Part shown: positions 44-58,348 of the stretch, in pieces
Position numbering within the stretch: position 1 is the first letter of the stretch
How the letters are laid out: the number at the start of each line of letters is the position of its first letter
Source of the DNA: Fimbriiglobus sp.
GTDB lineage: Bacteria; Planctomycetota; Planctomycetia; Gemmatales; Gemmataceae
Direction of reading: 5' to 3'
Length of the DNA: 60,182 nt
Assembly (NCBI GenBank): GCA_025351325.1
Contig: JANXWE010000119.1
Coordinates: forward strand, 1-60,182
Notes under the pieces: model-generated
Databases searched by the model: none
Told to the model about the DNA's origin: nothing
Seen by the model: only the letters and a program-made list of their open reading frames with translations
Translations under genes and position numbers: made by a program

Positions 44-107
44 CCGGCGAGCCGTGCTCTCCGGCCGTCAGGATTCACCCGGCTCCTCACGGAGCACGGC
101 TCGCCGG
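44..107. repeat. REP-like palindromic element next to the RAYT gene
   Basis: A perfect 16-bp inverted repeat, ccggcgagccgtgctc at 44-59 and its complement at 92-107, encloses a 32-base loop. Within the right half is a small hairpin, GCTCC-TCAC-GGAGC at 82-95. The right arm lies inside the 3' end of the transposase gene and codes for its last residues. A second element with the same outer arm and the same TCAC-loop hairpin occurs at 20782-20862. REP palindromes beside RAYT genes are a known association; that this is the cognate REP is inference. Confidence 0.65.
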
Positions 108-667
108 CTCGCGTCGTATTCATCCAAGGCTGGCTGCCAGTGCTCCGCCCACCAAGTCGCCAACGGATTCGGTTGTTTGCTCGCGACGTAGATCACGGCG
201 GAGCGCACTGCCGTGTCGTCTGGTAGCTTTCGTTTCGAGCCTTTCGCAGTCCAAAATGTACCATTCGTTGGCAAAGGCCGAAGTTTCATCACCGCACGCG
301 TCGCCCAACTTTTGAACGTCTCCAATATCTGTTGAGGATCGGGATCACCGGCGACACCGACGACGAGGTGGGTGTGATTGAACATCGAGCTGGCCGCTTC
401 CAAGTTCCACTTTCGGACGCGTGCCGTTTCGCGGAATTGGGCGATCACCGCTTGGGCATCAGCACGGCTCAGCGAAACCGGGTCGCCGCTCATTTGTCCT
501 CGAACCCAATGCTCCAACCCGGGGAGATCCTCATCGTATGGTGTCCCGGGAATGTTGTGATTGACTTGATTGCCGTCATCATCGCGGATGTTGCCCACAA
601 AGCCGCGTTGATCGCCCGGTAGCCAATTGCCGTAGCAAGTCCACGTCAACAACCAGTACCGATCCAT
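68..667 (-). CDS. REP-associated tyrosine transposase (RAYT/IS200-like, Y1 family)
   Basis: About 199 residues. The HUH motif is visible as HTH at residues 98-100, inside the hydrophobic strand MFNHTHLVVGV. It is followed by the helix around QQILETFKSWATRAV and a C-terminal segment with AVIYVASKQPNP, matching the usual YIxxNP region that follows the nicking tyrosine in RAYTs. These proteins process single-stranded REP hairpins rather than moving as ordinary insertion sequences. I start at ATG 667 because GGGG lies six bases upstream. An in-frame ATG at 685 overlaps the stop of the upstream gene and cannot be excluded. The gene ends inside a palindrome (44-107) that is a plausible substrate. 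Confidence 0.75.
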   Translation of the reverse strand: MDRYWLLTWTCYGNWLPGDQRGFVGNIRDDDGNQVNHNIPGTPYDEDLPGLEHWVRGQMSGDPVSLSRADAQAVIAQFRETARVRKWNLEAASSMFNHTHLVVGVAGDPDPQQILETFKSWATRAVMKLRPLPTNGTFWTAKGSKRKLPDDTAVRSAVIYVASKQPNPLATWWAEHWQPALDEYDASRRAVLREEPGES

Positions 668-681
668 GATTATCCCCGGCC

Positions 682-2955
682 TCATTTCTTCACTGGCCCC
701 AGAGACATCGTCACGGCGGCCTCCGCGAACAACTTCCGCACGTCGAAACCGCCGTCGGTGAACTTCTTCGTCAGGTCGGTGTGCGCCGTTGGGCCGTACG
801 CGCGGATCGGTTGTTGGGCCACGTGGTGGAACACTTGCACCGCGAAGGCCGCGTGGACTTCCGGGCTGTTCGCCAAATATTTCCCGAGTTCTACCGGCCC
901 CTTCAACGTGATTGCTTGACCGTCGCGTGCCAAATAAGAACCGGTGTCGTCGACCGCTTTCGTGTTGTCCTGAGTCCGGTAGCGGCCGATGGCGTCGAAC
1001 TTCTCCAGCGTGAACCCCAGCGGATTGATGATCCCATGGCAGGTCATGCAGTTCTGCGCTTTGGTTTGCAAGCTCACCCGTTCTCGCGTGTTCAAGCTTG
1101 GGTGCAAGTCGGCCAACAGCGGTGCCACCGCTTCGGGTGGTGGCCGCAGCGATAATCCGAGTACCCCGCGAGTCAGAAAGACCCCGCGATGAATCGGTGA
1201 ACTCTCGGCGGTGTAGGCGAAGTTTGCCAAAATGTACGGGTGCGTCAGGACACCGGAACGCTGGCCCGCGTCGAGCTTCACCGTGGTGAACTTGGCGTCC
1301 GCTGGCAGATCTGCGCCGTACAGTTTGGCCAGGCGACCGTTCAACGGGATCGCATCGGCCGTCAAGAGTCGCTTGAATTCAGCCGATTTCCTCCAGACGA
1401 TGTCACCGACGAACAGATCGAGCGAGGTTCGCAAATCGGATACCACTTGCGGATCGAAGCCCGCGAAGCGCTTGGTATCTTTACCGAGTTCCCCAGCTTG
1501 TTCGACGTTCAACCAGTGGTGGAAAAACTGGCGGACTTTCGGTTTGGCACGCGGGCTATCGAGCATTCGCGTCGCTTGGGCCAGGACTTGTTCACGTGTT
1601 TTCAATTTCCCTTGAGTCGCTGCGCCGTAGAGTTCCGCATCGGGGATCGAATCCCACAACCCGAACGACAACCGCGACGCCACGTCGAAGCCGTCCCCTT
1701 GGCCGCCGACTTCGCGGTACAAAAATAGAGGTGATTTCAACACGATCAGCACGACCCGTTTGATGGAAACATCGGTGCCGCGCGACGGTTCGAACTGCTT
1801 CTCGATGAGCTTCTTCTGGTCGTCCGAAAGCGGTCGGCGGAAGGCCCGCTCCGCGAACGTCTTGGCGAATTCCTTGAGTTTGGACAACCGATCCGGGGCC
1901 ACGTCGGTCGTCTTGGCCAAGTCGTTGATCTTCGCAGAAATGTAGGTAGCCGTTTCCAGTGCCGCGTCAGTTGTGGCCGCGTCCCATTCCTTCGACACAG
2001 CGGTGCCACGCTCCCAGCCGAGGCTACGATCGTCGGGTGGGAACGGCGTCCCGGGGGCGAATTGTTCCGGAAAGTTCACCGGACTGAGCACCCGGCTTGG
2101 GATCGTTTCGACCGCACTTCGTGGCGGCTTCCAGTTCAAACTGATGCTGGCGGGTAACACCGGCCGCTTGGGATTTTTCTTGGAATCATCCACGCCCTGC
2201 TTCGCTTTGCTGAAGTTCAAGCGGATCGGATAAGCCCGCCCGGCCACCAAGTAGACGCTGTACACATATTCGGACTGCATGCCCGATTTCACGGTCGCGT
2301 CGATGGCCGGTTTTTCCAAGTCGTTGATCCAAAACTGCATGGCCTGTTCGGTGCGGATCACGAAGTCGTAGCTACCCGTTTCCTCCGGCAAAATGCTACC
2401 GTTCCACGAGATCGCGAACTGATGCGGGTCGGGGAACTTGCCCGTCTCGGGTGTCTCTTTTCCGAAGTCGAATACCACCTCAGCATCCAACCGTTCGATC
2501 ACCCGTTCATTTTTGTTGTGATCCCGGCCTTTGAAATACTCACCGTTCAGGCCCCGTTTGTCGCCCCAGTTGGCGTTCCAGCGGAACTGATTCACGATGT
2601 CGGCGATGCTGTTGCGGTACTGCGGCACCGTCAACCGAGCCAGTTCCACACGCGCCGGCCGATTGCGATCCCGGGCGACCGGGGAATAAAACGCATCGTG
2701 CAAGTACGCCGAGATTTTCTCCGCTTCCGCCTGCGAGACACTTCCGGGATCGTCTTCGGGCATCGTTTCGGCGACGTATTTGGACAACTGAAGAACCGAG
2801 CGATCCCCTTCGAGGCTCCGCTTGTATTTTTTGGTTCCTTCGCCCTTGCCCCCATGGCATGATGCGCATTTGGAAGCGTACAATTCCGCCCCAGTTGGCT
2901 CGGCAGCCAGCAATGGAGACGAATATAGGACGAAGGCGAACAGCGACAATCGCAT
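682..2955 (-). CDS. Planctomycete cytochrome c with DUF1587/DUF1592/DUF1588/DUF1585-type domains
   Basis: About 757 residues from ATG 2955, chosen because it begins a clean signal peptide (RLSLFAFVLYSSPLLAA); the frame stays open to 3015. A cytochrome c haem site CASCH follows at residues 30-34. Then come the PSD-type region with RLTVPQYRNSI, a central beta-rich PA14-like segment (FAISWNGSILPEETGSYDF), the RRPLSDDQ segment, and a second CMTCH site in the NPLGFTLEKFDAIGRYR motif typical of DUF1588. Such proteins are periplasmic, of unproven function, and usually sit beside DUF1552 or DUF1501 partners; none adjoins this one. Its stop touches the transposase gene. Confidence 0.85.
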   Translation of the reverse strand: MRLSLFAFVLYSSPLLAAEPTGAELYASKCASCHGGKGEGTKKYKRSLEGDRSVLQLSKYVAETMPEDDPGSVSQAEAEKISAYLHDAFYSPVARDRNRPARVELARLTVPQYRNSIADIVNQFRWNANWGDKRGLNGEYFKGRDHNKNERVIERLDAEVVFDFGKETPETGKFPDPHQFAISWNGSILPEETGSYDFVIRTEQAMQFWINDLEKPAIDATVKSGMQSEYVYSVYLVAGRAYPIRLNFSKAKQGVDDSKKNPKRPVLPASISLNWKPPRSAVETIPSRVLSPVNFPEQFAPGTPFPPDDRSLGWERGTAVSKEWDAATTDAALETATYISAKINDLAKTTDVAPDRLSKLKEFAKTFAERAFRRPLSDDQKKLIEKQFEPSRGTDVSIKRVVLIVLKSPLFLYREVGGQGDGFDVASRLSFGLWDSIPDAELYGAATQGKLKTREQVLAQATRMLDSPRAKPKVRQFFHHWLNVEQAGELGKDTKRFAGFDPQVVSDLRTSLDLFVGDIVWRKSAEFKRLLTADAIPLNGRLAKLYGADLPADAKFTTVKLDAGQRSGVLTHPYILANFAYTAESSPIHRGVFLTRGVLGLSLRPPPEAVAPLLADLHPSLNTRERVSLQTKAQNCMTCHGIINPLGFTLEKFDAIGRYRTQDNTKAVDDTGSYLARDGQAITLKGPVELGKYLANSPEVHAAFAVQVFHHVAQQPIRAYGPTAHTDLTKKFTDGGFDVRKLFAEAAVTMSLGPVKK

Positions 2956-3086
2956 AGCTTGGAACCGAAAGGCGTTGGGGTGAGACTCATTATTTTTGCA
3001 CCGGTACCAGCACAAGTCAAGGCGTCAGGCACGTTGGCTGTTTTTCTCAGTATTCGACGATTTGGACAAATTTCCATCAAAAGAAT

Positions 3087-4990: not shown

Positions 4991-5192
4991 TCAGGAATAT
5001 TGAACCGCGGAGACGCGGAGGATACAAAAAAGAATTGGGATGAAACCGTTGATAGGCATCGACTGATTCATTTCCCTGCTTTTGTATCCTCCGCGTTTCT
5101 CTGCGTCTCCGCGGTTAAATTCTTAATTCGGTTTTCATCGCCCTGCTTTTTTATCCTCCGCGCCTCTGCGTCTCCGCGGTCAAAATTCCTGA
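4991..5192. repeat. Intergenic GCGGAGACGCGGAGG-type inverted repeat
   Basis: The left end (tcaggaatattgaaccgcgg, from 4991) is mirrored with few mismatches at the right end (ccgcggtcaaaattcctga, to 5192). Copies of ccgcggagacgc stand at 5005-5016 and, inverted, near 5101-5114 and 5166-5179, with tatcctccgcg at 5085 and 5152. The repeat fills the gap between the convergent phosphatase and kinase genes. It provides the kinase stop codon and can fold into a long hairpin that may end transcription both ways. The same family recurs at 55797-55970. Confidence 0.75.
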
Positions 5193-8013: not shown

Positions 8014-8071
8014 GGTCTGATCTGCGAACGGCCGCTCTAGCCAAGTTGGCCGGGCGAAACCCACTCCCTTA

Positions 8072-8156
8072 AAAGATTCCCGTAACACAGTTTCGGGGTT
8101 TCCGCTCATCTCGGTAGACCAGACATTTTGTCGGGTCACCTTGTGGAGGGAGTCCG
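8072..8156 (+). promoter_or_regulatory. Conserved leader of the Cys/Tyr-rich gene, copy 1
   Basis: This leader matches 8930-9015 upstream of the second copy, with shared blocks such as gtaacac, ccgctcatctcggtagacc and a gtggagggagtccgatgcg ribosome site. No sigma70 boxes are visible. Conservation through duplication, and position behind an ECF sigma gene, make it a candidate promoter for that sigma factor. Confidence 0.4.
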
Positions 8157-8867
8157 ATGCGTAAGTTCCTGATCGGTATGGTGGTGTCGGGTCTGGCAGC
8201 CGGGGCTGTGATGGCAGGCCCGCCGAGCGCAGGCAAAAGCGGCGGGGGGCAAACCTCGGTCAACAAAGGTCAAGTGCTGAACCTTCCGAAGTCCAGCATG
8301 CCCAGTTCCAGCACCCCACACAACAACGGGCAAACTTCGCAGATGCCCAAGTCCGGGGGGAACCACAACGGTGGTGGTCAAAACTCGTCGAGCCAACATT
8401 CCATGCCGAAGTCCGGCAGTTCTTACGTGAACTACCACAAGACCTACGGCACGTCGTTCTCCGGTGGCTACTGCTATCAAGGCCAGTCTCACAACCATTG
8501 GTCGTTCTCCGGCTACTCCAGCAAGTACGGTTGCACCTGCTACTGGTGCCCCTCGACGTGCTGCTACTACTACTGGTGCCAGCCATCGAACTGCTACTAC
8601 CCGGTGAGCTACTACAACTCGGCCCCGTGCCCGCCGGTGGTGGTTTCGTACCCGGCCCCGTGCCCGGTGGTGGTGGTTTCGTACCCAGCCCCGTGCCCGG
8701 TGGTGGTCTCGTGCCCGGTAGTGGCCCCGTATTGTGCCCCGGCCCCGTGCTGTGCCCCAGCCCCGTACCAGGTACAAACGCAAGTTCAGACCCAGACCCA
8801 GACTCAGACCCAAAGTCAGACGCAACTGCAAGGGCCACCAGCCGGTGTCCCACCACTCCCCCAGTAA
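8157..8867 (+). CDS. Exported Cys/Tyr/Pro-rich low-complexity protein
   Basis: 236 residues. A signal peptide (RKFLIGMVVSGLAAGAVMA) is followed by a Ser/Gly/Asn-rich spacer. A Cys- and Tyr-dense block follows (YGCTCYWCPSTCCYYYWCQ, then NCYYPVSYYN), then about four SYPAPCPVVV-like repeats. A Gln-Thr dipeptide tract near residues 205-225 and a PPAGVPPLPQ tail end the protein. The composition suggests a disulfide-rich surface or wall protein, but no function is known to me. GGAGGG precedes the ATG. A strong terminator follows at 8877-8904. A shortened duplicate lies at 9016-9321. Confidence 0.8.
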   Translation: MRKFLIGMVVSGLAAGAVMAGPPSAGKSGGGQTSVNKGQVLNLPKSSMPSSSTPHNNGQTSQMPKSGGNHNGGGQNSSSQHSMPKSGSSYVNYHKTYGTSFSGGYCYQGQSHNHWSFSGYSSKYGCTCYWCPSTCCYYYWCQPSNCYYPVSYYNSAPCPPVVVSYPAPCPVVVVSYPAPCPVVVSCPVVAPYCAPAPCCAPAPYQVQTQVQTQTQTQTQSQTQLQGPPAGVPPLPQ

Positions 8868-8904: not shown

Positions 8905-9015
8905 CGTTCACTCGAGCCACCGGCCGACGAAAGAATTCCGGTAACACCCGTCCGGGCTTCCCGCTCATCTCGGTAGACCCGACACTTCGCCGGGTCACCT
9001 TGTGGAGGGAGTCCG

Positions 9016-9321
9016 ATGCGAAAGTTCCTGATCGGTATGGTGGTGTCGGGTCTGGCGGCCGGGGCGGGGGCGGCAGGCCCAGTCGATAGGGTGGTGTCGG
9101 GTTTGGCCGCCGGGGTCGTGGTGATAACGCCGCCAAGTGATGGCGAGAACGGAGCGGGGCCGGCGAACCGGAACGTCCCGAAGGGGGGTGCGGGCACCAA
9201 CAGTGGCAGTCAAAACTCGAAGGGTCAATACTACCCTCCGAATTCTACGAAACTTTACAAAAAACGCATTGTGTACTACGTGTACTACCCCCATCTTCAA
9301 CTTCCAAAAGTAGCGGAGTGA
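9016..9321 (+). CDS. Decaying duplicate of the exported Cys/Tyr-rich protein
   Basis: 101 residues. Leader, ribosome site and signal peptide (RKFLIGMVVSGLAAGAGAA) are nearly identical to the gene at 8157, but the Cys-rich block and Pro repeats are gone. A GLAAG-containing piece is repeated inside the gene (VVSGLAAG at about residues 9-16 and again near 27). The old stop is lost, so the frame runs into the former terminator, which codes for the last residues LPKVAE before a TGA. It may still be exported, but the pattern fits a gene losing function. No cysteines remain. Confidence 0.6.
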   Translation: MRKFLIGMVVSGLAAGAGAAGPVDRVVSGLAAGVVVITPPSDGENGAGPANRNVPKGGAGTNSGSQNSKGQYYPPNSTKLYKKRIVYYVYYPHLQLPKVAE

Positions 9322-14515: not shown

Positions 14516-14931
14516 GTGCAGTCCCTCGCGGTCGGGCGTCCGCCGACAAACAGCCTCCGGCTTACCAGTTCCGGGAATCCGGGTAAAGTGCAACTGGGGT
14601 GCGAATTGGGGCGAGCCGGCCAGCGTCAGCCGTCGGTGCGGGACTTGCAGAATCACCGACCACTAAATAGACGGAGAATACTCGTCCCGACGAAGACAAC
14701 CCGAAGGTTGAACTCCAACGGAGACTGAAGACAGGGTGGATTCGTTCTGATGAGGTGAGTGATCGACTAAGCGGAGCGGACTCTGAGCTGCTTGTGGACA
14801 CGTCAAAAAGAATTCCAAATTCGGTACGGTTGCGTCCACTGATCAATCAGGCGCCTTCTCCGAACGGGCTGTGCGGCCAGTTCGGAGAAGGCAACCCCAG
14901 GGGAATCGCCGATTGCTTTGGGGGCGGAGGC
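14516..14931. other. 416-base gap between the DUF11 and barrel genes
   Basis: No convincing gene is seen. An open frame on the minus strand (14562-14846) is Ser/Arg-rich without a ribosome site. The only clear structure is the hairpin at 14853-14892. The upstream part must hold the DUF11 promoter, but no good sigma70 boxes stand out. Confidence 0.5.
14853..14892 (-). terminator. Hairpin after the BBP7-like gene
   Basis: Perfect 13-bp arms gccttctccgaac (14853-14865) and gttcggagaaggc (14880-14892) with a 14-base loop, 40 bases downstream of the barrel gene stop. No T-tract follows, so termination is likely but not certain. Confidence 0.55.
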
Positions 14932-16667: not shown

Positions 16668-17693
16668 ATGTTCCGCAAACTGACTCACTACCTCGGTGCC
16701 GCCGTGTGCGTCCTCGGGGTGACTTCCGTGGTGCCGATGTTCCTCGATAAAGCGAACGCACAAGCTCCCGGCTTCCAAGGGACTTTCCGGCCTAGCGGCT
16801 TCCAACGCCCATCCGGACTGAGTCCGCTGCGGCCCAACGATCTCACCTTCTCGCAGTTCGGTGGCCAGCAAGGGCAAGGTGGCTTCGGTGGCGGCCAACA
16901 GGGTCAACAAGGTGGTGGCCAACAAGGTCAGCAGGGTGGGTTCGGCGGTGGTCAGCAAGGCGGCTTCGGTGGCGGCCAACAGGGCGGGTTCGGCGGCGGT
17001 CAGCAAGGTGGCTTCGGCGGCGGTCAACAGGGTGGGTTCGGCGGTGGCCAGCAGGGCGGGTTCGGTGGCGGTCAGCAGGGCGGGTTCGGTGGCGGCCAAC
17101 AGGGTGGCTTTGGCGGCGGCCAACAGGGTGGGTTCGGCGGCGGAGGCCAGCAAGGTGGCTTCGGCGGCGGTGGTCAACAGGGCGGTGGTCAACAAGGTGG
17201 TTTCGGTGGCGGTATGGGTGGCTTCCGTAGTATCGGCATCCAATTCGTACCAACGGTTTCCCCTTCCAACGGCTTTGCCGGTCAAGGTGGTCAACAAGGC
17301 GGTCAACAAGGTGGTGGATTCGGTGGCGGCCAGGGTGGATTCGGCGGCGGCCAAGGTGGATTCGGTGGCCAGGGCGGCGGTTTCGGAGGCCAAGGTGGCG
17401 GATTTGGTGGTATGGGTGGCGGCTTCGGCGGTGGCCGCGGTGGTCAAGGTGGTGGATTCGGCGGCGGTTTCGGCGGCCAGGGTGGTGGATTCGGCGGTCA
17501 AGGCGGAGGTTTCGGTGGCCAAGGCGGCGGATTCGGTGGCCAGGGCGGCGGATTCGGTGGCCAGGGCGGCGGATTCGGTGGCGGAGGTTTCGGTGGTCAA
17601 GGTGGGGGCTTCGGAGGAGGTTTCGGTGGCCAGGGCGGCGGCTTCGGCGGCGGCGGTGGCAAGATCGGCTTCAGCGGCGGTTCCGGTCTCTAA
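16668..17693 (+). CDS. Exported Gly/Gln/Phe repeat protein
   Basis: 341 residues from ATG 16668 (GAGG eight bases upstream). A signal peptide (RKLTHYLGAAVCVLGVTSVVP through ANAQA) and a short unique segment (residues 35-62) are followed by two repeat blocks. The first has about ten FGGGQQGG units. The second has FGGQGGG units. They are separated by a unique linker, IGIQFVPTVSPSNGFAG. The residue mix resembles elastomeric, phase-separating or amyloid-forming low-complexity proteins, but no function can be assigned. Repetitive DNA makes length variation likely. A strong terminator follows. Confidence 0.75.
   Translation: MFRKLTHYLGAAVCVLGVTSVVPMFLDKANAQAPGFQGTFRPSGFQRPSGLSPLRPNDLTFSQFGGQQGQGGFGGGQQGQQGGGQQGQQGGFGGGQQGGFGGGQQGGFGGGQQGGFGGGQQGGFGGGQQGGFGGGQQGGFGGGQQGGFGGGQQGGFGGGGQQGGFGGGGQQGGGQQGGFGGGMGGFRSIGIQFVPTVSPSNGFAGQGGQQGGQQGGGFGGGQGGFGGGQGGFGGQGGGFGGQGGGFGGMGGGFGGGRGGQGGGFGGGFGGQGGGFGGQGGGFGGQGGGFGGQGGGFGGQGGGFGGGGFGGQGGGFGGGFGGQGGGFGGGGGKIGFSGGSGL
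16855..17690 (+). repeat. Coding tandem repeats in the Gly/Gln-rich gene
   Basis: Imperfect units of 24 bases (ggcggcggtcagcagggcgg then ttcg) run from about 16900 to 17215. A second family built on ggtggccagggcggcggattc runs from about 17330 to 17660. Synonymous variation between units shows the protein repeat is kept. Confidence 0.8.
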
Positions 17694-19685: not shown

Positions 19686-20549
19686 TCAGTACACGCTTCG
19701 GGTTCGCGGTTGGAACGCCGATAGGAGTTGACCCACGTTCACGGGGCTATCCGGCGCAACGGCGAGGGTGTGGAATGGTTTCACCAGCCGAACCGGCGTC
19801 CCGTTGATCTGCACCAGCGAGCCGGCCCACACCAGTTGGTACAACCGCCTCAGGTCATCTTTGTCTTCGGCCGTCAACTGGCTCAGGGTGCCGTAATTCA
19901 TGATGGAGAACTTGCTGTGCGTCCCGAAGATTTCACTCGGCCACGCGGTTTCGCTGATCTTGGCGAAGAAATGCCGAAGCCCGAAGACATGGCCGATCTC
20001 ATGGATCAAAGTTTCGACCTGTTCCTGTCGGCTTTGGGTGAACATTTTGGGATACAAATCCAACTGGTGGCGACCGCCGTCGGGGAAGAACGCGCTGGCC
20101 AAAACGCATCCGCTCGCACTGCAGTCGTCGGCGCTTCGCATCACGATCTCGAAGTCCCATACGTCCGCGTCCTCGGTGAACAGGACGGGGGCGGCAGTCC
20201 CCCAGGCGAGCAGGGACTCGGCGAACAACGTTCGAATCTCGGCCTTGGCGGCGGCGGGGTTCGCGAAGTTGTTCATGGAACTCTCGCGGAACCGCCACCG
20301 GAGCGTCGTGTCTTTTGCCCACAGCGGGATGAAACCCTCCGAGGCATCGACGACGAGATCGAGCGGGGATCGGCCATGCGGCGTCGTTTGCCCCCGGGGT
20401 TCTGTGTCGCAGATGATCCCGAGTCCGAGAAGGTGGATCTGCGATTCCGCTTCGCGGGTCGGCCCCTCGCCTTCCCGCATCCGAAACAGATCGGCTCGCT
20501 GGGTGTTGGATTTCCCGTTCTTCAGGCGATTCGTGGAGATCTTTGCCAT
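19686..20549 (-). CDS. Matrixin-like (metzincin) zinc metalloprotease
   Basis: 287 residues. The zinc site is HEIGHVFGLRH (His183, Glu184, His187, His193), and the Met-turn SIMNYG has Met217. The following LTAEDKDDLRRLYQL helix is the usual end of matrixin catalytic domains. About 70 N-terminal residues are basic and hydrophilic with no signal peptide, unlike most metzincins, which act outside the cell. A 50-residue tail follows the catalytic domain. A nested palindrome lies upstream at 20619-20674. The protein begins MAKISTNRLK and starts after AGAG. Substrate unknown. Confidence 0.8.
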   Translation of the reverse strand: MAKISTNRLKNGKSNTQRADLFRMREGEGPTREAESQIHLLGLGIICDTEPRGQTTPHGRSPLDLVVDASEGFIPLWAKDTTLRWRFRESSMNNFANPAAAKAEIRTLFAESLLAWGTAAPVLFTEDADVWDFEIVMRSADDCSASGCVLASAFFPDGGRHQLDLYPKMFTQSRQEQVETLIHEIGHVFGLRHFFAKISETAWPSEIFGTHSKFSIMNYGTLSQLTAEDKDDLRRLYQLVWAGSLVQINGTPVRLVKPFHTLAVAPDSPVNVGQLLSAFQPRTRSVY

Positions 20550-20618: not shown

Positions 20619-20674
20619 ACTTCAGAACATCCTAATTGGATGGAGAATGTTCTGAAGTTGCCACTTCGGAACAT
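20619..20674. promoter_or_regulatory. Nested palindrome with a third half-site, possible operator
   Basis: acttcagaacat (20619-20630) is followed 16 bases later by its exact complement atgttctgaagt (20647-20658), and then by acttcggaacat (20663-20674), a direct copy with one change. Inside lies a small catcc-taatt-ggatg hairpin. It could be an operator for a dimeric regulator of the metzincin gene, or an mRNA hairpin. Confidence 0.5.
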
Positions 20675-20781
20675 TTTGATTCTACTTTCTCAGGTTGTCA
20701 ACAAGAAATCACAAAAATATTCAAAAATAGTTTCGGACGTCTTTCTCAACTCGATCCGGTTGACCACGTCACAATTTGCAT

Positions 20782-20862
20782 CCCGGCGAGCCGGCCCCGT
20801 GAGGGGTCGGAGTCTGGCACGCACAAAATCACCCGGCCGCTCACGCGGCTCGGCTCGCCGGG
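20782..20862. repeat. Second REP-like element
   Basis: Outer arms cccggcgagccg (20782-20793) and cggctcgccggg (20851-20862) are perfect complements. Inside are two small hairpins, CCCC-GTGA-GGGG (20794-20805) and GCCGC-TCAC-GCGGC (20836-20849). The right half aligns with 75-107 of the RAYT-linked element, with stem bases changed in pairs. Confidence 0.7.
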
Positions 20863-20959: not shown

Positions 20960-21544
20960 ATGACGACCACGTTACCGATCAACCGAATTGGCACCTATCT
21001 CGAGACTCCGCGGCCGATGTTACCGACGACCGAAATCGAGCGCGGCCAGCTTTGGAGCGATGTCGTGTTCGAGGCGGTGCTCGCGCTGCGAACTCAACTC
21101 GGCAGCCACAACGAAGCGATCTCGGCGGGCGCGGCGAGTACGATCCTCGAACTGGAACGGACGCGGATGCGCCACGATAAAAACGTCGCGGGGAGTCGGA
21201 TGAAACCGTTGGGGCTAGAACCCATCCTCGGATTCCAAGAAGACGAGTTCGACGAAGCCGAGGAGGAAGAAAACGAAGTGCCGATCCAGAACAAAGTCGA
21301 AAACCCGCCGGCGAAACGGAAACCATCGTCCGGTTCCAGAAACACAGATTCAGCACGGCTGTTCGATCACGTCCAAGAAGTGACTCTCCACTTCAATAAT
21401 TTGGGTTGCAAAGGCATGGACTATCTGGAAGCCGAGCAATTCGTGTTAGCAGGATTTCGACGCTGCGCCCTCCATGTCGAAGACATCGAGCGCGATCAGT
21501 TCGTGGCCACGCTGAAGAGGAAGGGCCAATGGGTGGAACGATGA
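20960..21544 (+). CDS. Hypothetical protein with acidic linker
   Basis: 194 residues, well-placed AGGAG before ATG 20960. The N-terminal half is helical (ERGQLWSDVVFEAVLALRTQ, then GAASTILELERTRMRH). A very acidic run (EDEFDEAEEEENE, about residues 94-106) and a basic Pro/Lys linker follow. The C-terminal helical domain begins with DHVQEVTLHFNNLGCKG. It has no signal peptide or membrane segment. The family is not recognised; the layout suggests a DNA- or protein-binding adaptor. It has its own strong promoter and converges on the 613-residue gene with a five-base gap. Confidence 0.65.
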   Translation: MTTTLPINRIGTYLETPRPMLPTTEIERGQLWSDVVFEAVLALRTQLGSHNEAISAGAASTILELERTRMRHDKNVAGSRMKPLGLEPILGFQEDEFDEAEEEENEVPIQNKVENPPAKRKPSSGSRNTDSARLFDHVQEVTLHFNNLGCKGMDYLEAEQFVLAGFRRCALHVEDIERDQFVATLKRKGQWVER

Positions 21545-27390: not shown

Positions 27391-28209
27391 TCAGAGTTCG
27401 ACGTCCGGCAACGCTCCGGTCGTCGGACGTTTCAGCATCTCGTTCAGCACCGTCTGAGCGAGGATCAAGTACGACTTCGAGATCGGATGATCGGGGAACT
27501 TCCGCACGATCGGTTCGCCACCGTCACCGCATTGGCTCACCTGAGCGTCGATGGGGATCTCCCCGAGAAACGGTACGCCGATTTCTGCAGCGAGTTTGGC
27601 CCCGCCCCCTTGTCCGAGCGGGTGCATCCGCGTCCCATCGGGAAGTGTGAGGTAGCTCATATTCTCGATAATCCCGAGGATCGGCACCCGGACTTCTTCA
27701 AACATTTTGACCCCTTTGCGGGCGTCGATCAACGAAACGTCCGCCGGCTGCGTCACCACGATGGCACCAGTCAGCGGTGCCGATTGGGACAGTGTGAGCT
27801 GGGCGTCGCCGGTGCCCGGTGGCAGATCGACGATGAGGAAATCGAGTTCGCCCCACGGCGGCTGGAACAACAGGGCGCCGACGGCTTGGGCCACCTTCGG
27901 ACCACGCCAAATTACCGCTTGATCGGCGCTGACGACGAAGCCCATGCTCATCAGTTTGATGCCGAACTTCTCGACGGGGAACGGAGTCTTGGTTTGATCC
28001 ACCATTCCCAAACCGAACATCATTGGCACGCTCGGCCCGTAGATATCGGCGTCCATCAGTCCGACTCGTTGGCCGTACATGTGCAACGCCAGCGCTAAGT
28101 TTGCAGCGACCGTCGATTTGCCGACGCCGCCTTTACCGCTGGCAATGGCGATGAGGTGCTTGACACCTGGTAATGGGGTCTTTTGGGGGGCGGCGGCTGG
28201 CGGCGGCAT
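27391..28209 (-). CDS. Mrp/ApbC-family iron-sulfur carrier ATPase
   Basis: 272 residues from ATG 28209; an upstream in-frame TTG is less likely. The deviant Walker A motif GKGGVGKS is at residues 25-32, and LMDADIYGPSVPMMFG and FLIVDLPPGTGDAQL follow as expected. The short form lacks the N-terminal DUF59 domain. The usual CxxC after ENMSY is replaced by TLPDGT, so cluster binding differs from E. coli ApbC; cyanobacterial and plant relatives also lack it. A DUF971 gene precedes it on the same strand, a recurrent partnership. Confidence 0.88.
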   Translation of the reverse strand: MPPPAAAPQKTPLPGVKHLIAIASGKGGVGKSTVAANLALALHMYGQRVGLMDADIYGPSVPMMFGLGMVDQTKTPFPVEKFGIKLMSMGFVVSADQAVIWRGPKVAQAVGALLFQPPWGELDFLIVDLPPGTGDAQLTLSQSAPLTGAIVVTQPADVSLIDARKGVKMFEEVRVPILGIIENMSYLTLPDGTRMHPLGQGGGAKLAAEIGVPFLGEIPIDAQVSQCGDGGEPIVRKFPDHPISKSYLILAQTVLNEMLKRPTTGALPDVEL

Positions 28210-28223
28210 GAGTGATCTCAAAG

Positions 28224-28297
28224 GCGTGCCGAACTCCGTCAGGAGTCGGGTAAATTCAAGGCGTGCCGAACTCCGTCAGGAGTCGGGTGAGTTCAAG
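28224..28297. repeat. 37-bp tandem duplication between DUF971 and Mrp genes
   Basis: Units 28224-28260 and 28261-28297 are identical except for two bases (taaattcaag versus tgagttcaag at the right ends). Each contains an ACTCC-gtca-GGAGT palindrome. The second unit overlaps the DUF971 stop codon. Confidence 0.85.
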
Positions 28298-28622
28298 CGG
28301 ACGGAAGTACGGTTCCGAGACACCGCAGCGCGTTAAGGGTGTAAATCCCGGTGCTGTGCCCATCGTTCCATTCGACTTGATAAGCATAGGCACCGACGGC
28401 TTGCATGCGAACGGGAGTCGGTGGCCCCGCAGCCACTTCCCGATCCGACAGCACCCGAAACGGGTTCGCCGGCTTCTTGCGGTCATCCTCACACGTCGCG
28501 CACGGGCACTGATTCCGCAGAATCCGCCAAGTCGTGTGCGTGCGAACACCGTCGGCCCAGTCGATGAGTAAGCCGTCGCCGTCGCGCTTAAGGGACAGGG
28601 GACGGAGTTCGGCTTCGGACAT
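28293..28622 (-). CDS. DUF971-domain protein
   Basis: 109 residues, a complete single DUF971 domain. Features: LIDWADGVRTHTTWRILRNQCPC with the CPCATC cysteine cluster, and the closing GAYAYQVEWNDGHSTGIYTL motif. The fold is also the N-terminal domain of gamma-butyrobetaine hydroxylase. Stand-alone copies often lie beside mrp/apbC, as here, suggesting a shared role in iron-sulfur handling; that role is inference. Confidence 0.85.
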   Translation of the reverse strand: MSEAELRPLSLKRDGDGLLIDWADGVRTHTTWRILRNQCPCATCEDDRKKPANPFRVLSDREVAAGPPTPVRMQAVGAYAYQVEWNDGHSTGIYTLNALRCLGTVLPSA

Positions 28623-55693: not shown

Positions 55694-55796
55694 GGTTGAG
55701 CCTCGGGTACAATCCTTGTCGAGCTGGCTAGATTAGCAAATCTCCCGGGCTTGTCTGCGCCGGTGCACAATTGAACTGTGATCTGAAAACGATTTA

Positions 55797-55970
55797 ACCG
55801 CGTCTCCGCGGTTCAAACCCAAAACAACTGAAACGCAGAGGCGCGGAGACGCGGAGGAAACCATCAGAAAACGAAACAGGGCGGGGCTTATGGCCAGGCA
55901 AGTCGCCCCACCCTGTTTCGTTTTCTGTCTTTTGCCTTCCTCCGCGACTCCGCGTCTCCGCGGTTCAAAA
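55797..55970. repeat. Second GCGGAGACGCGGAGG-type inverted repeat
   Basis: aaccgcgtctccgcggttcaaa (from 55796) and its mirrored copy near 55951-55970 bracket a central hairpin: cagaaaacgaaacagggcgggg (55865-55886) pairs with 55905-55926 with one mismatch. A gcggagacgcggagg copy lies at 55843-55857. The right edge supplies the stop codon of the biotin ligase gene. Confidence 0.8.
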
Positions 55971-58261: not shown

Positions 58262-58348
58262 GGAGAGGTGGCGGAGTGGTCGATCGCGTTAGTCTCGAAA
58301 ACTAATTTACCCGAAAGGGTAACGAGGGTTCGAATCCCTCCCTCTCCG
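58262..58348 (+). tRNA. tRNA-Ser(CGA)
   Basis: Acceptor arms ggagagg (58262-58268) and cctctcc (58341-58347) pair perfectly, with discriminator G at 58348. The anticodon loop CTCGAAA with stem ttagt/actaa reads codon UCG. A long class II variable arm (ttacccgaaagggtaa) and the T arm gagggTTCGAATccctc are clear. CCA is not encoded. The gene directly precedes a tyrosine recombinase gene. Confidence 0.95.

Follow-up and report, generated by a model that had tools for sequence, protein, structure and literature searches.

The window, that is, the whole stretch of DNA analysed here (60,182 nt, contig C278), carries hairpin repeats of one REP family beside a gene for a Y1 HUH transposase of the RAYT type, and these repeats share a one-strand plan: a GAG foot (mostly GGCGAG), an 8-bp stem often with a one-base bulge, and a GTNA tetraloop. 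Judged by sequence comparison, the plan recurs across the phylum, a recurrence missed by an earlier sequence-only reading that had pointed out two elements and a neighbouring RAYT. We consider it likely that the RAYT encoded at 667-68 and its close relatives bind these REPs, often arranged as REPINs, in the form of single-stranded hairpins and mobilise them.

REP copies in the window

We re-read the two elements and found the arms of the first (CCGGCGAGCCGTGCTC at 44-59 and GAGCACGGCTCGCCGG at 92-107) and of the second (CCCGGCGAGCCG at 20782-20793 and CGGCTCGCCGGG at 20851-20862) where the sequence-only reading had placed them, together with the inner hairpins it had described (GCTCC-TCAC-GGAGC and GCCGC-TCAC-GCGGC, TCACCCG preceding each). 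The outer arms that it took to be shared by the two elements are indeed present, but they partly consist of foot (GGCGAG) and lower stem from two REPs in inverted orientation. The stem itself is 8 bp long (CCG plus 5), with one unpaired base ahead of the closing CGG. The features are as follows.

44..59, plus strand: what remains of the inverted partner REP, namely its foot and 5' stem arm, which pair with 92-107; no separate model match
68..667, minus strand: RAYT (Y1 HUH transposase) gene, by profile, predicted fold and motifs
75..105, minus strand: REP copy overlapping the RAYT 3' end, by pattern and covariance model; foot GGCGAG (105-100), stem CCG-T-GCTCC, loop GTGA, stem GGAGC-CGG, tail GTGA
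20785..20810, plus strand: left REP of an inverted doublet, GGCGAG-CCG-G-CCCC-GTGA-GGGG-T-CGG, weak model score (E 0.012)
20829..20859, minus strand: right REP of the doublet, stem GCCGC/GCGGC, model E 2.4e-11
28223..28253, plus strand: first of two REP copies in direct tandem (37 nt), foot altered to GGCGTG, model E 5.5e-6
28260..28290, plus strand: second REP copy of the 37-nt tandem, model E 7.1e-8

In the element at 44-107 the left REP is a remnant, and the covariance model scores 75-105 only. Both elements folded better than any of 200 shuffles each (z -5.85 and -5.87), and a chance palindrome was rejected on this result and on the genome search, where the pattern gave 54 copies against 0 in the reversed control. 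Zero-mismatch matches to the core pattern in the window were these two elements only; with up to 2 mismatches there were 6 matches, where 2.65 were expected, and because 5 of 100 shuffles also reach 6 the four weaker ones are meaningless. Two other identities were rejected: an Rfam RNA, the sole Rfam match of the window being the tRNA at 58262-58348, and intrinsic terminators, as the terminator scan picked other hairpins. A weak match to the REP model (E 0.04), which may be chance, was also seen at 14610-14639, close to the start of a long open frame.

The repeat family in the genome

The genome (5.09-Mb assembly, 382 contigs, 96% complete) was searched as the sequence-only reading had proposed. 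The 54 pattern copies were obtained at up to 3 mismatches, and the covariance model found at least 122 copies at E<=0.1 and at least 106 at E<=0.01, so that further copies are numerous and their stems compensated, which are the two points on which that reading had staked itself. The inner stems among the 54 were ACCGC (16), ACCCC (9), GCTCC (8) and twelve rarer types.

Covariation was tested on 39 distinct cores with the structure CCG-N5-TNAC-N5-N-CGG. Results showed that 97.8% of the 312 stem cells were paired, with both sides changed in 53 cells, and that the covariation score was 0.421, whereas shuffles gave 0.110 and slid partners no more than 0.096, bearing out the paired stem changes first noticed between the two window elements. 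Pairs 8:21, 10:19 and 11:18 vary freely, while 9:20 and the loop-closing 12:17 are nearly fixed; the outer CCG/CGG is hardly variable in part because the search pattern demanded it.

Inverted doublets are the usual arrangement of the family, which the sequence-only reading had missed. Among the 106 copies at E<=0.01, 66 lie within 200 nt of another copy, forming 33 neighbour pairs, and 31 of these pairs are inverted with the CTCGCC ends (the feet) outward, where 0.44 pairs were expected. The spacer measures 11-53 nt in 30 of the 31 inverted pairs and 108 nt in the remaining one. A spacer of about 49 nt is common to several doublets in different surroundings (L015, L020, L025 and L027), and genome G013 has a recurring doublet form with an 84-nt spacer (L065, L066 and L083); inverted REP pairs are therefore dispersed here as units, as REPINs are. 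For one doublet an empty site was sought in three genomes of the same genus; no homologous flanks were matched, only REP or doublet sequence, and that in one genome. Near contig ends, the doublets L015/L016 (C139:19207-19308) and L074 (G002:C493:65-175) are bordered by perfect inverted copies of their flanks, perhaps fold-back assembly artefacts.

The neighbouring RAYT gene

The presence of a RAYT beside the element was borne out by profile, predicted fold and motifs, even though the scores of the window protein lie below the curated cut-offs of both Pfam and NCBIfam (Y1_Tnp, E 0.0016; NCBIfam RAYT model, E 1.3e-5 and 25 bits, cut-off 80). The start was set by homology at the ATG at 667, another in-frame ATG lying at 685, and the frame ends at 68; the overlap of the element with the 3' end of the gene, as originally noticed, thus covers 68-107. 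The RAYT model is matched at E<=0.001 by every one of the 61 proteins in alignment A4, which includes the window protein, and 58 of the 61, the window protein not among them, match Y1_Tnp at the same threshold. The A4 profile reaches solved IS200 transposases (2f4f, E 7e-7).

The AlphaFold model (pLDDT 89.8, pTM 0.83) had as its best Foldseek match 4er8, the E. coli TnpA-REP bound to a REP hairpin (E 4.6e-5). With VIA-align, IS200-type chains took ranks 1-14 (Z 11.5 to 12.9, about 101-105 residues) and 4er8 scored Z 10.1. The H-u-H motif and the catalytic tyrosine are in place, as H98, H100, Y160 and Q165 are invariant in the 61 A4 rows; HxH is present in 64 of 65 stop-free relatives, the exception, L146, being outside those rows. 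The Y----Q motif reads YVASKQ in the window protein, and the gap from Y160 to Q165 is three or four residues in relatives.

The window RAYT gene (A) is single copy. The genome carries three more RAYT homologues, B, C and D, which are 44%, 33% and 28% identical to A, B being thus its next homologue. B (C139) is flanked by similar REPs, copies of CCGACGGC-TNAC-GCC-A-GTCGG, and C and D by other hairpins. Gene A stands at a contig end, and we infer that repeats break assemblies at such ends. Directly upstream of A on the same strand, 682-3015 encodes a protein with DUF1592, DUF1588, PA14 and cytochrome c domains. Of the RAYT homologues in this genome, two more distant ones, L034 (C221:5847-6338) and L033 (C30:82-552), have flanking hairpins of their own, with feet read as TTAG and CGAG.

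Repeats beside related RAYTs

We collected relatives by keeping 80 of 122 from a scan of named genomes and adding 33 from a genome comparison set, giving 113 loci, 100 of them non-redundant. Most of the named-genome relatives are titled planctomycete MAGs or strains, two are titled Chloroflexi and one only "bacterium". The four nearest homologues of the window RAYT (L084, L035, L085 and L086; 58-69% identical) are flanked by REPs of the same plan, CCG-N-5bp-GTNA-5bp-CGG. The proposal that the REPs are the cognate substrates of the window RAYT is thus supported by homologues, not proved, and assignment of single copies to an enzyme is ambiguous because the genome has four RAYT homologues.

A 20-mer repeat (up to 2 mismatches) was present on both sides of the gene at 91 of the 102 loci with two flanks, compared to 1 of 78 control pairs taken from stretches 0.9-1.3 kb away, and at 79 of 90 after near-identical loci were removed. 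RAYT genes of this group are thus flanked by many-copy hairpin repeats, the window gene lying beside a repeat with at least 54 copies. A scripted check of 66 loci gave 23 in which a REP overlaps the 3' end of the RAYT frame and 29 more in which one begins no further than 60 nt past it (a few of the 66 frames hold stops or run long), and the overlap in the window is therefore a recurrent arrangement. GEPGA occurs in the C-terminal tails at L045, L046, L042 and L118 and looks encoded by the overlapping REP (GGC GAG CCG GGA GC).

Foot, loop and probable recognised strand

The commonest tetraloops near RAYT genes were GTCA (97), GTAA (57), GTGA (38) and GTTA (16), plus complements, and none of these or their complements was among the 15 commonest loops of the control. 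We used a strict scan asking for 8 of 8 stem pairs, with one 5'-arm bulge allowed and the foot unconstrained. Of the 155 GTNA hairpins that it gave, 145 had GAG directly before the stem; after the stem no trinucleotide occurred more than 18 times. Restricting the count to the 87 non-redundant close loci left 137 such hairpins, 128 of them with the GAG foot; the 137 came from 44 loci, at 41 of which the foot was present. Control stretches gave 26 hairpins in the same scan, and neither GTNA nor TNAC occurred as a loop in any of them. When GAG foot and GTNA loop were asked for together, 76 of the 99 close loci were positive, or 66 of the 87 non-redundant ones, and the control stretches were all negative.

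Conservation ends just upstream of GGCGAG (289 hairpins). Considering the GAG before the stem, the GTNA loop and this stop together, the element reads 5'-GGCGAG-stem-GTNA-stem-3', which for 75-105 is the minus strand. The recognised strand is probably the one with the GAG foot and GTNA loop, opposite to the TCAC strand on which the sequence-only reading had described the hairpins. A fixed cleavage dinucleotide sought around the 289 hairpins was not found, CT next to GGCGAG reaching only 0.12.

The GAG/GTNA scan was empty at 23 of the 99 close loci (21 of 87 non-redundant). The window RAYT is among these because its REP lies inside the 3' end of the gene, outside the scanned flank. As we read them, other scan-empty loci carry variant forms, with loop GCAA and foot GGCGAG at L129, loop CTCA and foot CCCGAG at L132, and a stem broken by an internal loop at L045 and L046. 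Distant homologues (E above 1e-30) had mostly other hairpins or none clear.

Stem divergence and co-occurrence with the transposase

We compared 3'-arm distances with RAYT distances at 66 non-redundant loci and obtained a Mantel r of 0.31 (p 0.0001, in a test that ignores shared ancestry). The mean 3'-arm difference was 0.12 within a locus and 0.28 between loci, the latter being a minimum over copies. As read from these distances, stems differ between lineages and track transposase divergence.

Among 59 genomes, REP model matches (E<=0.01) occurred in 23, at least 124 of them in G013 and at least 123 in G016, and a RAYT match (E<=1e-5) in 31. With thresholds picked after the tables had been seen (at least 3 REPs; RAYT E<1e-30), 12 genomes had both REPs and a close RAYT, 5 REPs only, 5 a RAYT only and 37 neither; the Fisher p of 2e-5 is indicative, as the genomes are related and shared ancestry is ignored. 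In four of the RAYT-only genomes the RAYT is flanked by hairpins with other stems (L037, L038, L039 and L040), and the fifth (L041) has diverged hairpins. The genomes with at least 3 such REPs and no close RAYT are G016, G018, G020, G033 and G043. The first four of these carry dozens to over a hundred R1-type REPs, and their close RAYT is either lost or unassembled, or else a distant homologue serves instead.

Proposed mechanism and alternatives

We infer that the RAYT transposes these repeats, and a possible course is as follows. The RAYT would bind the strand carrying foot and GTNA loop while that DNA is in single-stranded form, as on the lagging-strand template for instance. Four features would be read: GAG at the foot, which corresponds to GTAG (AG is the end of each), the base left unpaired in the 5' arm, the loop GTNA and the C-G pair that closes it. 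Several inner base pairs would act only as a rod and so could drift as long as pairing is kept. The RAYT tyrosine would nick beside the REP and transfer the strand, by which the doublet would spread. A GTNA loop would be closed by a sheared G-A pair. That foot, bulge and loop are what the enzyme reads is suggested by the free third position of GTNA, as in Marinomonas, and by the AG shared with GTAG. Several results weigh against this course: five genomes have REPs without a close RAYT, copies are hard to assign among four homologues, the empty-site search matched no homologous flanks, a fixed cleavage dinucleotide was not found, and the GAG/GTNA scan was empty at 21 of 87 non-redundant close loci.

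On balance we lean, by a little, towards a planctomycete RAYT recognition grammar distinct from that of GTAG systems, in which GAG foot, unpaired 5'-arm base and GTNA are read and the stem is a nearly free, co-diverging rod. If this is true, one enzyme would serve a cloud of stems united only by pairing, which would explain how new REP families could arise and still keep their transposase.

There is a sizeable chance, which we place below even, that most copies were spread by homologue B or by a lost or unassembled RAYT, with RAYT A serving only the GCTCC subset. GCTCC, the stem found at A, is in fact a minority stem (8 of 54), and the commonest, ACCGC (16 of 54), differs from it, as does ACCCC (9), which is evidence against a simple assignment of the family to A; in addition, B is flanked by similar REP copies and A is at a contig end. 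Against this, GCCGC-type inner stems flank both of the nearest relatives of A, L084 and L035, and ACGCC is found beside L035 in addition, so that one lineage uses several inner stems with the outer CCG/CGG and the foot in common.

We regard it as unlikely that the REPs are relics or domesticated elements, spread once by a RAYT and now kept for a host role such as mRNA 3'-end protection, transcription termination or protein binding, with the covariation reflecting that role. Such roles are reported for other REPs (accessible text of PMC6006769), some genomes keep REPs without a close RAYT, and the surroundings in the window would be compatible with them: the doublet at 20785-20859 sits between divergent open frames (19686-20549, minus; 20960-21544, plus), the tandem at 28223-28290 also lies between genes, its copy at 28260-28290 being placed between an NUBPL/Mrp-type gene (27391-28221) and a GBBH-like_N gene (28293-28622), and a run of five T follows the second element by about eight bases. 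The terminator scan, however, called neither REP hairpin, calling others at 20644-20677 and 208-226. Moreover, the strand asymmetry (a foot on one side, a bulge in one arm) and stems that track the RAYT point to the RAYT as the selecting agent.

Very improbable is a reading of the doublets as terminal inverted repeats of MITEs or mini-transposons moved double-stranded by an unrelated transposase: they do have inverted ends, their outer boundary is sharp at GGCGAG and their spacers differ in size, but a hairpin with a fixed loop is formed by either half alone, several stem bases are free if paired, which makes a double-strand-binding protein unlikely, and repeats flank a Y1 HUH gene on both sides at 91 of 102 loci, the window's gene being single copy.

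Comparison with known systems

Published systems are compared here by the accessible text of the papers cited. Class 3 TnpA-Y1 comprises HuH-Y1 proteins mainly from Planctomycetes (24 studied), with a Y....Q motif and extra N-terminal conservation, whose genes are flanked by non-GTAG hairpins that can reach high copy number and have a stated foot CnGA (PMC6006769). The system in the window most resembles this rare group, which is its closest known kind (PMC6006769): the window RAYT has the Y----Q motif and the hairpins are high-copy (at least 106 at E<=0.01). It differs in its foot, which is GAG, and in its invariant GTNA loop, absent from the accessible published description (PMC6006769). The C required by CnGA is found in 27 of 292 hairpins (24 of 246 non-redundant), with the register set by GAG at the foot. 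As the protein motif is present and the CnGA foot is not, we call the system class-3-like, by the published description, and do not file it as a member.

RAYT choice of repeats has been dissected biochemically in three models, with strand-specific binding; the E. coli REP needs an unpaired bulge and its loop has no sequence preference, and in the Marinomonas REP the loop has to keep its T, T and A but leaves the third position free, as GTNA does (PMC8266576). With GTAG REP/RAYT systems the family shares an HUH Y1 enzyme beside the repeats, tagged hairpins, doublets, a foot ending in AG, and bulge or loop as recognition features (PMC8266576, PMC3733652). It differs from them by the GAG foot, by a GTNA loop that most loci retain in spite of their varying stems, and by the RAYT-model score of 25 bits (cut-off 80). 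GTAG/CGTC-tagged REPs carry an unpaired GTAG or CGTC at one end (PMC3733652); the tag here is GGCGAG or, on the other strand, TCAC. Since only the final AG of a GT[AG]G foot is shared, we did not file the family as GTAG-type REPs.

REPINs are inverted REP doublets dispersed as units (PMC3116915, PMC6006769), and the doublets described above are alike in this respect, with a different sequence and host (PMC3116915). The predicted fold of the RAYT resembles IS200/IS605 transposases (IS608, ISDra2), and there too the hairpin is recognised through its loop and unpaired or mismatched bases (PMC8266576). Unlike those elements, where a multicopy transposase gene moves with its own ends, there is a single gene copy here against about a hundred hairpins.

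REP/RAYT is therefore a known kind of system, and a description of the GTNA loop or GAG foot was not found in the literature searched, mostly open papers, including the accessible text of PMC3733652, PMC6006769 and PMC8266576. The 100 non-redundant planctomycete-type loci separate kept features (foot, loop and closing pair) from those where only pairing is kept, so that recognition rules become testable with a handful of oligonucleotides, which bears on what makes a RAYT accept a repeat and on how families of REPs come to differ. GAG-stem-GTNA-stem also gives a search rule for REPs without GTAG that GTAG-based scans would miss.

Other repeats in the window

Another short repeat, CTCCGCGTCTCCGCGGTTCAA with variants, occurs in both orientations at 5000-5185 and 55793-55969. 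At 16868-17690, repeat units of 21-24 nt that are rich in GGT/GGC form a long and probably coding array, and a direct duplication of 151 nt (8071-8221 and 8930-9080; 87% identical) has its two copies 859 nt apart.
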